From a virus, in IMG/VR virus record IMGVR_UViG_3300038701_003011, positions 1 through 56,753 of that record: a stretch of DNA of 56,753 bases, one strand, 5' to 3'. Each line of letters starts with the position of its first letter. Positions within the stretch are counted from its first letter, which is position 1. A model generated the notes under the pieces. It made no database searches, had not been told where the DNA came from, and worked only from the letters and a program-made list of their open reading frames with translations. The position numbers were made by a program, and so were the translations under genes. Shown here piece after piece: positions 2,938 through 53,447 of this stretch.

Positions 2938-3165
2938 TTAAACTCCTTTCCTATTCCGCAAAAACGCAGAAAACGCATCCGCAAAAGCTTGCTCCATCGT
3001 CTGCGATTCTCCGGTTCTGTAACTAGTTAGGGCAGCATCATGCACCCTTGCATTGTCATCTGCATCTGCCTGCAAGTGCTTAGATACTTCCTGCATAACA
3101 TCTGCAGCCGTTTGCAGCTCTTTGGTACTAAATTGCTTAAGTTTGCTAAAGTTTTTTTGAATCAT
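2938..3165 (-). CDS. Hypothetical helical protein, 75 aa
   Basis: Predominantly helical, with QTAADVMQEVSKHLQADAD and a C-terminal FADAFSAFLRNRK helix; possibly a small coiled coil. The ATG overlaps the stop of the pentapeptide gene upstream (ATGA) and has a GGAAGG site. Function not recognised. Confidence 0.6.
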   Translation of the reverse strand: MIQKNFSKLKQFSTKELQTAADVMQEVSKHLQADADDNARVHDAALTSYRTGESQTMEQAFADAFSAFLRNRKGV

Positions 3166-3911
3166 AAGCCCTTCCTAAGGTTTGCACAGGATTTAATAAA
3201 TTGTGCGTATAGGTTTATTTCTTCTTTTGTATAATTTTCTTTTAAACCAATTTCTTCATATCTTAAAACCCAATCCTCTATATTCATTGAAATGCAACCT
3301 ATTTTTATCATGTTTTCATGACAAAATGCAAAATGCTTATTAAATTGAAAAGTTAATATATTGGTGTTGAGTAGATTCGCCTCACGCAGATCCGCCCCAC
3401 GCAGATTCGCCTTATACAGATTCGCCCCACGTAGATTCGCCTTATACAGATTCGCCTCCTGCAGATTCGCCCCACGCAGATTCGCCCCATGCAGATTCGC
3501 CTCATACAGACTCGCCCCATACAGATCCGCCCCGCGCAGATTCGCCCCATGCAGATTCGCCTCATACAGACTCGCCCCATACAGATCCGCCCCATGCAGA
3601 TTCGCCTCATACAGACTCGCCCCATACAGATCCGCCCCACGCAGATTCGCCCCATACAGATTCGCCTCACGCAGATTCGCCCCATACAGATCCGCCCCCT
3701 GCAGATTCGCTCCATGCAGATTCGCCTCACACAGATTCGCCCCATACAGCTTCGCCCCCTGCAGATTCGCTCCATGCAGATTCGCCTCACACAGATTCGC
3801 CCCATACAGCTTCGCCCTATACAGATCCGCCCCTTGCAGATCCGCCTTAACCCCATTCTTATTACCTTTTAACCACTTTTCATGCAATCTCAATACATTA
3901 TCTAAATCCAT
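3162..3911 (-). CDS. Pentapeptide-repeat protein, 249 aa, with conserved C-terminal domain
   Basis: Third member of the family. The leader is nearly identical to 1637-2338, followed by about 30 A(D/N)Lxx repeats and the same FNKHFAFCHENMIKIGC tail with an IEDWVLRYEEIG helix; the extreme C-terminus differs (a cysteine and basic residues). GGAG precedes the ATG at 3911, which overlaps the end of the upstream gene by 14 bases. The near identity of leader and tail with the first paralogue suggests recent duplication or gene conversion. Confidence 0.88.
   Translation of the reverse strand: MDLDNVLRLHEKWLKGNKNGVKADLQGADLYRAKLYGANLCEANLHGANLQGAKLYGANLCEANLHGANLQGADLYGANLREANLYGANLRGADLYGASLYEANLHGADLYGASLYEANLHGANLRGADLYGASLYEANLHGANLRGANLQEANLYKANLRGANLYKANLRGADLREANLLNTNILTFQFNKHFAFCHENMIKIGCISMNIEDWVLRYEEIGLKENYTKEEINLYAQFIKSCANLRKGL
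3370..3846. repeat. 15-bp pentapeptide-coding array, third gene
   Basis: About 32 units. It contains a higher-order block of about 60 bp (the order TACAGACTCG, TACAGATCCG, CAGATTCG) repeated at least three times, also seen at 61-157 and at the right end. This points to unequal crossing-over or conversion. Confidence 0.85.
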
Positions 3912-6885: not shown

Positions 6886-7392
6886 ATGAAAAAACCTAAA
6901 AAACGCCCCGAACCTAAAACCCAAGCAGAGTTTGCCTCCCTCCAAAAAGAATGGTACGATTATCTAAAAGACACCGGATTTGACGACCTAGAATGGGTCG
7001 ATCATAAGACTGGCAAAGGTCAAGGGTCGGATTACTTGAAGCAGCCGTCTATGTATCTCTCCAAGCAGTATGACGCATCAGTGGAAGAGTATTACAGAAA
7101 ATGCCGAATCTTTCTACAGCACGGCGACTTCAAATCTGGGACGCTAAAGTTTGTATTCAAGCGGCACACCGAGGGCGCCTCTTACCGAGATATTGCTGCC
7201 GAAATAGAAAGGTACCCACAAAGATTTGGACGCACATATAGCATATTCTGGATTTCTCAGAGATTAAATGAGATGCTCGAGTACATGGAATACTGGCACT
7301 ACATGCACCCAGAAGGATTGCTTAATCCCGGAAGTCAAGATTTTGTAGTCGAGGATTTGCCCTTAAAACCTCTTGACCCTGAGTCTGAATAG
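6886..7392 (+). CDS. Hypothetical protein with possible helix-turn-helix, 168 aa
   Basis: First gene of the rightward block, with a GGAGCACAT site before ATG. The N-terminus is lysine- and proline-rich. A central segment (SGTLKFVFKRHTEGASYRDIAAEIERY, residues about 85-112) reads like a helix-turn-helix, followed by an aromatic helix (ISQRLNEMLEYMEYWHYM). This would suit a DNA-binding regulator or terminase-like protein. Its last codons overlap the promoter of the downstream RNA. Function not established. Confidence 0.7.
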   Translation: MKKPKKRPEPKTQAEFASLQKEWYDYLKDTGFDDLEWVDHKTGKGQGSDYLKQPSMYLSKQYDASVEEYYRKCRIFLQHGDFKSGTLKFVFKRHTEGASYRDIAAEIERYPQRFGRTYSIFWISQRLNEMLEYMEYWHYMHPEGLLNPGSQDFVVEDLPLKPLDPESE

Positions 7393-7400
7393 TGTATAAT
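7373..7400 (+). promoter_or_regulatory. Near-consensus sigma70-type promoter
   Basis: TTGACC (7373-7378), a 16-bp spacer and a perfect TATAAT (7395-7400). Initiation would fall near 7407-7408, exactly where the terminal helix of the predicted RNA begins. It is the best promoter I see in the window. Confidence 0.8.
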
Positions 7401-7407
7401 TAAAACC

Positions 7408-7683
7408 GTAGGACGGCGTGGGAAGCTGTGGATGCGCGGCAGGATAAGGCATGCGGCATTAATTCACTTGTTAGCAAGGGACCACTGGAGACACGCATAG
7501 AGTATATATGGTGGATAAGCAATTGATTCCGAGTTTTGGCAACAAAACTGACCTGTGTGGAATCCCGCAGAATGGTAAGCGCATTTGTTACGCGGAGGGT
7601 ACTGGCTTTATACTTACCCTGATGAACGTGGTTGAGTAATCAGGCTAAACACACCATTTGCCCCAGTAGCGCGGGGCTCCTAC
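7408..7683 (+). ncRNA. Predicted structured non-coding RNA, about 276 nt
   Basis: GTAGGA at 7408-7413 pairs with TCCTAC at 7678-7683, closing the whole stretch. Inside are AGTTTTG-GCAA-CAAAACT (7532-7549, seven pairs, GNRA loop) enclosed by GATTCC/GGAATC (7525-7530, 7559-7564), CCTGAT/ATCAGG (7618-7623, 7639-7644), GGGTA/TACCC (7597-7601, 7615-7619) and a GC-rich hairpin GCCCC/GGGGC (7660-7664, 7673-7677). A consensus promoter sits just upstream and a T-rich tail follows. It does not match tmRNA, RNase P, 6S or SRP signatures that I know. A 43-codon ORF (7508-7639) is contained but has a poor ribosome site; it could make this a small mRNA instead. Confidence 0.6.
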
Positions 7684-7745
7684 AATTTTATTATTAGACA
7701 CAGTTAATAAATACATCAAGATAAATTAATAAAGGAAGATAATAA

Positions 7746-8120
7746 ATGAAAATTAAGAGACCGGATTGGGAGATTTTAAATTATCAAGATCCTAGAACTT
7801 GGAGTGCTTTTGATGCATGGTTTGATACACACGTAAAGCCCATTAACAAAATGCTTGAGCAGGGGGTCGAAGTCACTGGCTGGCGCCTATCTGAAGCTGA
7901 TGTCGGCGCAGGAGATAATATAGGAGAGTGGACTTGTGGATCTGGACATGACTCAAGATCTACCCACAAAGCCCTGCTCATAAACCTCCAGCCCATAAAG
8001 CAAGAGACTGCTGAGGATGTTTTGCGCCAATGTCTGGAAAATGGAAACTTTGTCAATAACGTAGACGGCTGGTTAGTGAAAAAAGTCAAAAACGTACTCG
8101 AGTCTAAAAATGACACCTGA
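7746..8120 (+). CDS. Hypothetical protein, 124 aa
   Basis: An AAGGAAGATAATAA site precedes the ATG. The protein begins with an aromatic WEILNYQDPRTWSAFDAWFDTHVKP segment and has an SGHDSRSTHKALLINLQPIK strand with a helical C-terminus, a pattern common in small phage proteins of unknown function. It overlaps the next gene by 11 bases. Confidence 0.65.
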   Translation: MKIKRPDWEILNYQDPRTWSAFDAWFDTHVKPINKMLEQGVEVTGWRLSEADVGAGDNIGEWTCGSGHDSRSTHKALLINLQPIKQETAEDVLRQCLENGNFVNNVDGWLVKKVKNVLESKNDT

Positions 8121-43541: not shown

Positions 43542-43957
43542 GCCTTATCTCCTTTAGGGCACCAAGTAGAGTGGTGATAGGAACTGGCGTCCTTGCCGTA
43601 AGTCTTAACTGCACCACACTCACATTTACTTTTTGGCTGAAGGGGGGCACCCCCAGGCTGCTTTACTGGACTCATTTCTGTTTCCATGTTGTAGACAATG
43701 TTTCCGCTTTTAGTTTCTCTTAGCATATACTCAGGAATGCTCCAAAGATTTGTCCCACAGTGCTCTTTAATTTCATACTCGTCTGGGCTAAAAGTTATTT
43801 TAACAATTTCCCCGACTTTGTATTTGTGTTCAGGAACCACAGACACCGGACTAAATCCTGATGGGATTGTATTTGGAGGATTAGTAGTACTGCAAGTATA
43901 AGTTGGGTGCTGATTTCCAAATGAATGCATAGGTATAGTTTTAGTGTGCATCTGCAA
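43538..43957 (-). CDS. Hypothetical protein with cysteine/histidine site, 139 aa
   Basis: Starts at TTG 43957 (GGAGG four bases upstream) or ATG 43951; both overlap the polymerase stop. Proline-rich start, a beta core (YKVGEIVKITFSPDEYEI) and a C-terminal CECG ... YHHSTWC motif likely to bind zinc. Not recognised. Coupled by ATGA to the amphipathic helix gene. Confidence 0.62.
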   Translation of the reverse strand: MQMHTKTIPMHSFGNQHPTYTCSTTNPPNTIPSGFSPVSVVPEHKYKVGEIVKITFSPDEYEIKEHCGTNLWSIPEYMLRETKSGNIVYNMETEMSPVKQPGGAPLQPKSKCECGAVKTYGKDASSYHHSTWCPKGDKA

Positions 43958-46900
43958 AGTTCCTCCCTATCTCAGCCGGAGCTTTCAAATCTATAGATAT
44001 TTTATAATTATTTTCCATAATATCTTGCACCTGCACTTTCATAGCATTCTGGTATTGCTCTGGAACTCGGACCACTAATTGATCGTGGATCTGAGCGCAG
44101 ACATATCCAGGGACTTGGTTCTTTTTCATGTATCGATTAATTGAAATAGCTGCTCTATTTACAATAGACGTAGACAAAGACTGGATTTGAAAGTTTTTAG
44201 CATTATTTAAATAATTGCTTAACTTCTTTCGAAGCTCTTTCATCTTAGCGTATTCTCCCGGATCATCATGGTATCTTTTCCATAACTCTAAAGAATCCAA
44301 TATATCTAGCCCATACTTGCCTACAATCCTTTTAGCCTCCCAAAGGTGCCTTACTCTTCCAGCTTCGGATCTTACAAAGCCGTCTGTAACTGCTTGCTCC
44401 TCAGATCTTTGCATCCACTGCTTTAAATCCGGATATGCATCTAAATACTGCTTTCGAAGCCCCTCAGCCTCCGCTTGAGAAACTCCAATTTCAAACTGAA
44501 GCTTGTACGCGCTCATTCCGTAGGGGATACCCAAACAATTATGTACTTTCACTCCGTTAGCAAAAAAATGGTGCTCATCTTCTACCCTAATATCATATAC
44601 CTCACAACTCTCACTAGGTTCTATTTTAATTACTTGAGGAGATTTACATCTAGATTTAAAAGTAGGAATATAATTTATGTATTCACGCAAAGCATCTGAT
44701 TTTCTTTTACACTTCATATGGTGATGCAGTTCCAGCTCTGATAATCTCTTACATCCTAATCTTGTTGGAGATATTTTATAATAGTTTTTTTCATAGGTTT
44801 TATTATACTCTAAAGAGTAAGAACACTCTACTCCTAGTGAATTTAATAAAAGACACACTCCAGTACTTAGCCGATGATCTTTTGAAACTAAATTAATAGA
44901 GGGCATATCGTGGTTCATTTTTATATAACCATCAGTGTCTAATAATCCTGCTAAAAAATTTAGTTTAAGTTTAATTGGCGCATTCATTATATATGTAGGT
45001 ACTTCCAAGTTTTTACACTTCTTTTGACCATCTTCCCATTTACCTAAGTTTAAGGTATTATATACAATCTTTGCCATTTCTGAGTTTACTACAACAATTG
45101 ATTCGAAATGTCCTCGGTCTTCTGATACTCTTGTTTTATATCCTAGATTTTCCATAAACTGTTTAAACCATTTAGTAACTCCATCTTCCTTTAATCCACA
45201 CATGCCAATATATCCTTTTAGTCCATGACCTTGTGTGTTTAACCTTTGACTAATTGAAACTATACCGTCTCCCAATAATGCTCCCGAAAAATAAGCCCAT
45301 TCATTATCCAGTTTTAGTTCTCCAAGAGGCTTATTTCCTCCATTTTTATAATACATATTGCTGTATATAGGTAGATAATTATTATTTAGACAATTGGAAG
45401 TTTCATAAATTATTTCATCCTTTTCCTTTAAATCCTTTGCCTCTACCCATTCGTTGTTAATAAAAAAGGGATGATCTTCGGTACATCTTATTGTGCCCCT
45501 GTTTGTATGAACTAATATTGTCCTAGCTTTTCTTTTAAATAATTTATTAACCTTTTTAAATCCTTTAGAGGTTTTTACTAAACTGTCTTCCTTAATATCT
45601 TTTATCTTTACATAGCCTTTTGAAGTTTCAACTAAGGTTGATCCTTCACAACAGTAAGCTTTGGCTTTTTGTCGTCTTTGTTTGTCGACTTTACCAAGGT
45701 AAGTTTTGGATGTCTTATCAGCCGAAACGTTTTGGAGTTTTTCCGTCTGTATAGCAATAGCAGAATAGAAATCAAGACCACTCCTAAAAATATCCCGTAA
45801 ACCATCATCGCCACTAACGTGGGCAAAGACATGAGGTTCAAGGGATTCATAGTCTGCATCGATAAATACATGATCTTCTCCTGAAATAAAAAACTTTCGA
45901 ACTCTGTTCGTGTGCTTTACAACAAGCTCCGAAGCTTGTCCCGGACTTAACTGTCTAGGTAATTGTTGAATATCAGAGCCGTATCTGCCGGAAATAGTTC
46001 TATGTTGAAAAAATGAAGGGTAAAATATGCCATCCTCAGATTGATCTAAAAATCTTTCAATGTAGGCTCCCCGGATCTTTATGAGCTTATTATAATCCTG
46101 CAAAGACTTTACCCAAGAATACTTCTCCGCCATCAAGTCTAAAAAACTATCATCTACTTGCGGATTTCCTTTATCGGTATAACTTACTGCCTTCTCACCA
46201 AGCTGCTCGAAGAAAAGCTTTTTTAAATGGTGCTTACTGGACAGATTAAATGGGTACTTTTGCTCTTCTTCTTTAATCAAACTTAACTGGACCATTCGTG
46301 CTACCCTAGGATGTAACTTTCCTTTTCCGAGCAAGAACTCTTTAGCCGGACTCTGTACTAAGTCTTCTACATTCTTTTTACTAAGACTATATTTTCCAGA
46401 TTTAGTTTTTGGTAGCGGAAGTTTGTAATAAGCCACAACTGCTTGTGCAAAACTCCCAGTATTCTTAGCCGGGTAATGTCGGTTTACGTACCAGGTTATA
46501 AAATTATCTAACTCTGGTGCTATGTGCTCTTGAATCGAGTCTTCTAAGTTATTGATATCTGTATTGATTTCCGATAATGAAGAGTTAAGCAATTCCATGT
46601 CTAACGGAATCCCGCCTTGCTCCATAGGAATTGTAACTTCTTTGTAAAGCGGCATAACTTCATCTTTAAAGAAAAAGTCTTCCAAATTTTCTTCTTTTAT
46701 TTGCTTAAGATAGTGACGATATAATTTCATTGTAAGGATGCAATCCTTTTCACAGTATTTTGCCATAATATCTAGATCGCATTTGTACATATCAGATGGA
46801 CCGTGACCTCCGTTAGCTTTTACGGATGCCATCATCTCTTCCTGCTCTCTAGTAGAGTCGGCGCCGTAAACTTTTTTAGCTATTTGTTTTAGCCTAAACG

Positions 46901-47267
46901 GCGGGAGCTCATCGACAGTGTGCTTCGCAAGCAAAGTGTCTGCCCAGAGTGAGTCTAAGAGATCTACATCAAAGAAATTAGTTGTAAATGGAATATCAAA
47001 TGCGCCGTTAAAGGTAATTACTTTCTTTTCTTGAAGATGCTTTAACGCAACCATACACTGCCAAGCTGGTAATACTTCTACTAATTTTCCATCTAAAAAC
47101 TGCTTATGTGGAATATAAAAGGATTCGGTGTCATTTGAAACACCAAACCCAATAATAGTATCTTTTCGAACGTTAAGACCATTTGTCTCAATATCAAATG
47201 CAACTTCAGATTGCTGCCTAATCCAGTTGGAAAACTTTACAAAATCTTCAGTGGTTTTGATAATCAT
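43941..47267 (-). CDS. polA: Family A DNA polymerase with in-frame intein, 1108 aa precursor
   Basis: N-terminal 3'-5' exonuclease: FDIETNGL (D25, E27), ITFNGAFD and YCEKDC. The polymerase domain has motif A (FIDADYESLEPH, about 465-475), motif B split by an intein (RRQKAKAY then CLGIPYGMS), and motif C (AQIHDQL, catalytic H-D). After removal of residues 539-910 the enzyme is 736 residues, the size of T7-type replicases. No 5'-3' exonuclease domain. ATG overlaps the previous gene with a GGAG site. It copies the genome with the primase and helicase of the same operon. Confidence 0.95.
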   Translation of the reverse strand: MIIKTTEDFVKFSNWIRQQSEVAFDIETNGLNVRKDTIIGFGVSNDTESFYIPHKQFLDGKLVEVLPAWQCMVALKHLQEKKVITFNGAFDIPFTTNFFDVDLLDSLWADTLLAKHTVDELPPFRLKQIAKKVYGADSTREQEEMMASVKANGGHGPSDMYKCDLDIMAKYCEKDCILTMKLYRHYLKQIKEENLEDFFFKDEVMPLYKEVTIPMEQGGIPLDMELLNSSLSEINTDINNLEDSIQEHIAPELDNFITWYVNRHYPAKNTGSFAQAVVAYYKLPLPKTKSGKYSLSKKNVEDLVQSPAKEFLLGKGKLHPRVARMVQLSLIKEEEQKYPFNLSSKHHLKKLFFEQLGEKAVSYTDKGNPQVDDSFLDLMAEKYSWVKSLQDYNKLIKIRGAYIERFLDQSEDGIFYPSFFQHRTISGRYGSDIQQLPRQLSPGQASELVVKHTNRVRKFFISGEDHVFIDADYESLEPHVFAHVSGDDGLRDIFRSGLDFYSAIAIQTEKLQNVSADKTSKTYLGKVDKQRRQKAKAYCCEGSTLVETSKGYVKIKDIKEDSLVKTSKGFKKVNKLFKRKARTILVHTNRGTIRCTEDHPFFINNEWVEAKDLKEKDEIIYETSNCLNNNYLPIYSNMYYKNGGNKPLGELKLDNEWAYFSGALLGDGIVSISQRLNTQGHGLKGYIGMCGLKEDGVTKWFKQFMENLGYKTRVSEDRGHFESIVVVNSEMAKIVYNTLNLGKWEDGQKKCKNLEVPTYIMNAPIKLKLNFLAGLLDTDGYIKMNHDMPSINLVSKDHRLSTGVCLLLNSLGVECSYSLEYNKTYEKNYYKISPTRLGCKRLSELELHHHMKCKRKSDALREYINYIPTFKSRCKSPQVIKIEPSESCEVYDIRVEDEHHFFANGVKVHNCLGIPYGMSAYKLQFEIGVSQAEAEGLRKQYLDAYPDLKQWMQRSEEQAVTDGFVRSEAGRVRHLWEAKRIVGKYGLDILDSLELWKRYHDDPGEYAKMKELRKKLSNYLNNAKNFQIQSLSTSIVNRAAISINRYMKKNQVPGYVCAQIHDQLVVRVPEQYQNAMKVQVQDIMENNYKISIDLKAPAEIGRNFADAH
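44538..45653 (-). mobile_element. Intein with LAGLIDADG homing endonuclease inside the polymerase, 372 aa
   Basis: Begins with the Cys1 block (CCEGSTLVETSKG) and a block B-like TEDHPFFI; ends HHFFANGVKVHN followed by Cys+1. The join KAKAY-CLGIPYG restores motif B exactly. Endonuclease motifs FSGALLGDGIV and LAGLLDTDGYI are both intact with their acidic residues, so it may be active. All splicing residues (Cys1, block B His, penultimate His, Asn, Cys+1) are present. Confidence 0.95.
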
Positions 47268-52934: not shown

Positions 52935-53030
52935 AACACCTTCCATGTGAAGAGTGTAACAGAAAAGCTCTAACTATGCAATACTAGATGAAAGTGTCGA
53001 ACTTATGATCAATGTCAAAAAGTTAGCCAT

Positions 53031-53043
53031 GTACATTGTGTAC
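53031..53043. promoter_or_regulatory. GTACA-N3-TGTAC dyad, site 1
   Basis: Perfect palindrome GTACATTGTGTAC, within CCATGTACATTGTGTACGTG. A further half-site GTACG lies at 53051. It is the reverse complement of site 3. Confidence 0.75.
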
Positions 53044-53111
53044 GTGTCATGTACGTGTTTTTTGCCTTTTTGAAAAGCAGAGTTGAATAATTATAAGCAC
53101 TTATCCTACAC

Positions 53112-53133
53112 GTACACGATGTACACAATGTAC
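53112..53133. promoter_or_regulatory. Two overlapping GTACA-N3-TGTAC dyads, sites 2 and 3
   Basis: GTACACGATGTAC (53112-53124) and GTACACAATGTAC (53121-53133) share GTAC. Site 3 with its flank GTACACAATGTACATGG is an exact inverted copy of the region around site 1. Confidence 0.78.
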
Positions 53134-53357
53134 ATGGGGTTTTCCAGTTTTATATATATTTTCTAATGGAGTAATGTATTTTTATCTTATTTTAGAGGGA
53201 GGGATGCACTTAAAAGCACGAGAGTCTTTATTTGAGGGTATCTTATTGCATTGAAGCAGTCAAGGGTACTCTTACAATTCAGTCTCTCAGGGAGAAAAAT
53301 GAACTACCTAACTACTACACATATAATCTTGTTATAGCCAAAACAGCCAAATTTCAT

Positions 53358-53370
53358 GTACATCGTGTAC
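53358..53370. promoter_or_regulatory. GTACA-N3-TGTAC dyad, site 4
   Basis: GTACATCGTGTAC, the reverse complement of site 2 (GTACACGATGTAC). It lies 225 bp from sites 2 and 3, so looping between sites is possible. Confidence 0.72.
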
Positions 53371-53447
53371 CTGCACCTATTTCCTCAGGCAAGGAGCCCC
53401 GTTGAGTGGCATAAACGCCTTAAACTCTAAAACCTAAGCCTAGATAC

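Follow-up and report, generated by a model that had tools for sequence, protein, structure and literature searches.

Does a near-consensus promoter that points into a gap between phage genes announce a new structured RNA, as a preliminary description of this locus had proposed, or does it drive the leader of the genes that follow? The window, by which we mean the whole stretch of DNA analysed here (56,753 bases), is an IMG/VR virus record, whose terminase, portal and capsid matches point to a tailed phage. On the plus strand, an ORF (6886-7392) is followed by a gap of 353 nt carrying no convincing gene and then by a run of small genes from 7746. The first part of the gap (7408-7683), the leader RNA proper, is GC-rich (GC 0.50, the 96th percentile of the genome) and gives way to an AT-rich spacer (7684-7745, 16% GC), which holds the Shine-Dalgarno sequence AAAGGA ahead of the ATG at 7746, the start of the first downstream gene (7746-8120, 124 aa).

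The ORF at 6886-7392 belongs to a small protein family, whose members in several related phages are encoded upstream of the terminase gene, and its product is possibly a small terminase or a regulator. Farther away, on the minus strand, the DNA polymerase A gene (43941-47267) is split by an intein with a LAGLIDADG homing-endonuclease domain, and two repeat-rich ORFs (1637-2338 and 3162-3911), each matching the same PHROG families in several stretches, are probably paralogous.

Promoter and end of the transcript

The near-consensus TATAAT promoter was confirmed: TTGACC-16-TATAAT (7373-7400, plus strand) agrees with the sigma70-type consensus in 11 of 12 positions and lies within the 3' end of ORF 6886-7392. 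Sites of the 11/12 type occur three times in the genome versus 1.3 +- 1.0 times in shuffled versions, a count that is weak alone; the placement matters, for two reasons. The genome has two long gaps led by a promoter, and 7373-7400 faces one of them; moreover, the sole relative of the gene at 7746 is likewise preceded, at the equivalent position, by an 11/12 promoter (TTGACA-18-TATACT) and a gap of 144 nt (a non-coding leader of about 145 nt). This relative, 45% identical by alignment to the 7746 gene, is found in two near-identical IMG/VR contigs (G001 and G002), which were the sole source of relatives of the neighbouring genes; none were found in GTDB genomes.

Judged by the distance from the -10 box, transcription would start near 7407-7408. 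No intrinsic terminator was detected on the plus strand past 7660 (a U run begins 8 nt beyond the hairpin at the 3' end of the block), and the RNA would be expected to read through into the gene at 7746. The missing terminator speaks against an independent abundant RNA, and the idea of a new RNA acting in trans, put forward in the preliminary description, is unsupported.

Fold of the whole RNA

The 276-nt globally structured RNA proposed earlier did not withstand comparison with dinucleotide shuffles. The minimum free energy gave z = +0.27 for 7407-7690 and z = +1.28 for the originally proposed 7373-7683, the ensemble diversity and ensemble defect of the block were at shuffle level, and so were the sub-windows of 70 and 120 nt, except for an overlapping pair at 7650-7729, which came near z -2. 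Since energy, diversity, defect and most sub-windows do not differ from shuffles, a large well-folded RNA is unsupported by the single sequence. Watson-Crick helices of 6 bp are mildly in excess (12 vs 6.2 +- 2.6). Among the internal helices described as perfect, the GNRA-capped hairpin has a high pair probability, but most of the others compete, exclude each other and are improbable (0.03 for GATTCC/GGAATC, 0.04 for CCTGAT/ATCAGG and 0 for GGTAAG/CTTACC); AGGGTA/TACCCT reaches about 0.65.

The GNRA hairpin itself (7532-7549, plus strand; AGTTTTG-GCAA-CAAAACT, 7 bp) is present as described, with a pair probability of 0.92-0.99 in folds up to 7745 and of about 0.6 once the coding region is included; such Watson-Crick GNRA hairpins number three on both strands of the genome, versus 0.4 in shuffles. 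When the fold extends into the coding region up to 7900, this hairpin, the helix closing the block and the 3' hairpin all fall to 0.46-0.81.

The statement that the RNA fits no known class agrees with Rfam 15, in which the window matched no family at gathering score and 7200-7800 none at E<=10. A tRNA or tmRNA was considered and rejected: the closing helix and the 5-bp hairpin beside it look like an acceptor and T arm, but a T-loop and a CCA are both lacking, and ARAGORN returned 0 genes. Homologues of the RNA sequence were found neither in phage or plasmid collections, nor in the records of relatives, nor by exact 18-mer in IMG/VR.

Pairing of the 5' end

The helix closing the block joins GTAGGA (7408-7413) to TCCTAC (7678-7683). 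Its pair probability is 0.8-1.0 for RNAs that stop at 7683 or 7745 and drops to about 0.5-0.6 when the fold takes in coding sequence to 7900. Initiation had been placed on the first base of this helix; the helix indeed starts 8 nt after the -10 box, at the probable transcription start, but a comparable Watson-Crick closing helix arises in 14% of shuffles.

For a comparison of leaders, the start was set 7 nt past the -10 box and the mean pair probability of the best six of the first nine bases was compared with that in shuffles. Four related phages supply five transcripts that combine a strong promoter with a long leader (the window in both directions, G001, G013 and G014), and in all five these bases are paired at 0.93-1.00. 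The rightward leader of the window reaches 0.976, a value attained by 3% of shuffles, and the shuffle fractions of the five are 0.03 (window, rightward), 0.01 (window, leftward), 0.047 (G001), 0.01 (G013) and 0.01 (G014). The longer leaders at two further sites, in G014 and G017, gave fractions of 0.125 and 0.83, and sealing of the 5' end is absent there. By our own Fisher combination, the probability is about 1e-5 for the five leaders and about 4e-5 for all seven. In the comparison set, made up of promoter-like sites within genes and of leaders in G013, G014 and G017 that are short or weak, the fractions ranged from 0.01 to 0.99, and those of the sites within genes were evenly spread. Predicted pairing of the 5' end thus exceeds chance across several long leaders of these phages.

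The 3' hairpin and its counterpart in a related phage

The 3' end of the block carries a hairpin (7660-7677, plus strand; GCCCC-AGTAGCGC-GGGGC), which abuts the closing-helix strand and has a pair probability of 0.98 in RNAs ending at 7683 or 7745. A counterpart was found in G014, a relative of the window phage by terminase (57%), at L079:11348-11331 on the minus strand: GCCUG-AGUAGAGC-CAGGC, compared with GCCCC-AGUAGCGC-GGGGC in the window. Seven of the eight loop bases are identical (shared pattern AGUAGMGC), as are the flanks AUUU and U, and two of the five stem pairs differ on both sides between these two sequences. The counterpart closes a block of about 270 nt in which no convincing gene is seen, situated behind TTGACA-17-GATAGT. 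Immediately after each hairpin comes the 3' strand of a 6-bp helix (GUAGGA/UCCUAC in the window, GGGGUA/UACCCC in G014). The 5' partner of this strand lies at the leader start in the window but, in G014, 69 nt ahead of the hairpin.

The hairpin-anchored comparison scored 69, against a maximum of 42 in shuffled pairs (0 of 3000 as high), and G014 was the best of 4322 hairpin comparisons in 12 phage genomes; because the likeness had been noticed beforehand, these figures serve as a chance check rather than as a blind test. From the two sequences a small covariance model was built; in 814 kb of related sequence it found only the window and G014, which match by construction, and the next best hit had E 0.5. 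The hairpin recurs in one other phage with compensating changes. Covariation in related phages had been named as a check on the RNA: in the 3' hairpin, candidate compensatory changes are seen at two pairs in the two sequences that carry it, and the remainder of the RNA is unsupported.

Past the hairpin, a Sankoff-type structure alignment of the two blocks gave z 0.6 and was not above chance (three comparisons run). Their sequence alignment beats 99.3-99.7% of randomised versions, but six of 14,814 unrelated segments outscore G014 (254) against the window RNA. In G014, the hairpin precedes an SSB-like gene, which is not a relative of the 7746 gene and for which no relative but itself was found. 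The G014 block gave no more than a chance-level match in Rfam. A likeness of 14 nt between this block and the E. coli RNase P RNA was dismissed, as no P4 partner strand is visible by eye and Rfam returned nothing. An earlier register of the two blocks (TGAGTA..CAGGCTA..CCATTT), with which an IMG/VR pattern search hit G014 alone, was replaced by the hairpin register. The leader of G001 shares neither length nor sequence with that of the window (local alignment p about 0.2) and lacks the hairpin, and homology with the G001 or G013 leaders was not above chance.

Function of the region

With a probability of roughly 0.55, we regard the region as the long 5' leader of a rightward operon of small, 'early' genes starting at 7746, bearing a sealed 5' end and a small hairpin. 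A leader of the 7746 gene is the simplest account because the whole fold equals shuffles, Rfam is empty and a terminator is lacking, and a small part of it is probably functional because the sealed 5' end recurs in relatives and the hairpin recurs with compensation. The strong sigma70-type promoter would drive transcription through the leader into the operon. Pairing at the 5' terminus shields bacterial mRNA from RppH and RNase E (PMC3997798), and locking the first bases in a helix could likewise keep these enzymes off a heavily made message; their presence in the host is an assumption. The hairpin with the AGUAGCGC loop at the 3' end of the leader would probably dock a protein of the phage or the host, such as a factor for elongation or translation. 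The start site, the read-through, stabilisation by the 5' helix and a partner of the hairpin are what we infer. Weighing against this account are the differing sequence and length of the G001 leader, the two-sequence basis of the hairpin, the unequal spacing of the closing-helix partners in the two phages, the weaker closing helix in folds that reach the coding region, and the position of the G014 hairpin ahead of an SSB-like gene.

Rather unlikely, in our estimation, is a stand-alone RNA, about 275 nt long and non-coding, that would act in trans and represent a new class common to the window and G014. Members of this family would come from a dedicated strong promoter, have their 5' end sealed and finish with a hairpin whose AGUAG(C/A)GC loop docks on host RNA polymerase, the ribosome or a phage protein. 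The two blocks do share a similar size, a strong promoter, a 5' helix at the start site, the layout of a GC-rich followed by an AT-rich part and the 3' hairpin, their sequence alignment exceeds 99% of randomised versions, and the next gene in G014 bears, by eye, a promoter-like sequence of its own. However, no terminator was detected, the whole-fold scores of both blocks are at shuffle level, their structures align at chance past the hairpin, and six unrelated segments align better than G014; moreover, no further copy was found in about 0.81 Mb of related phages or by the IMG/VR pattern search with the superseded register.

A better small-RNA candidate than 7408-7683 is a compact, small-RNA-like unit elsewhere in the genome, upstream of the primase gene (53583-53425, minus strand), which has a TTGACA-17-TATTCT promoter (53583-53555), a 9-bp hairpin exactly at the presumed start and a terminator-like hairpin (CCCCCGTCCTGGGGGTTTTTT). 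The stretch from this promoter to the primase gene holds a GTACAnnnTGTAC-like palindrome in at least three copies (CATGTACATTGTGTACGTG and variants; 53028-53373), which have an operator- or origin-like appearance, and the gap carrying them folds at z -5.4. The primase gene of G013 is likewise preceded by a promoter and a long leader.

We consider it improbable that, in the manner of HK022 put or lambda nut, RNA of the nascent leader signals antitermination or elongation and is recognised through the AGUAGMGC hairpin. In both phages the hairpin, small, with a conserved loop and a compensating stem, has a strong promoter upstream and early or replication genes downstream, and both put and the window element are non-coding RNA just downstream of an early phage promoter. 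The put RNA, however, consists of two stem-loops within about 70 nt (PMC9378689), which were not seen here: 7407-7500 folds as one weak branched domain. A 5-bp stem in an early leader and a conserved loop recall lambda nut (boxA and boxB), but the nut pentaloop contrasts with a loop of 8 nt in the window, and no boxA is present (best match with three mismatches in nine). No antiterminator protein was identified, and the hairpin is missing from the G001 leader.

The preliminary description had also named a coding signature in the frame at 7508-7639 as a critical check. The test places these 43 codons between decoys and real genes: their score (0.0005) exceeds that of 90% of decoy frames, and 92% of real gene pieces score higher. 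An ORF of that length on the plus strand is expected in 34% of random regions, and neither a similar protein nor, by eye, a good ribosome-binding site was found, so that we lean towards regarding the frame as non-coding. That the region is an ordinary spacer in which a GC-rich stretch arose by chance, or a gene remnant that may even encode a 43-aa protein, would suit the fold statistics and the rank of the frame among decoys, but this has little probability given those same coding results and the fact that the G014 hairpin and the 5'-end pairing both exceed chance.

Comparison with known systems

A 'new structured RNA' called from raw sequence thus loses its global fold, and two local features survive. 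The AGUAGMGC hairpin is a specific element, which can be searched for in further genomes, and the sealed 5' end, should the pattern hold in the long leaders of these uncultured phages, would offer a simple hypothesis for how early messages are kept stable. For the long leader that we favour, the closest comparison is with the ompA and papA leaders, in which a stem-loop at the 5' terminus stabilises a bacterial mRNA (PMC3997798 and studies cited there). The helix of the leader in the window differs from these stem-loops in being long-range (partner 265 nt away) and predicted only; like them, it would pair the first nucleotides of a strongly transcribed mRNA.
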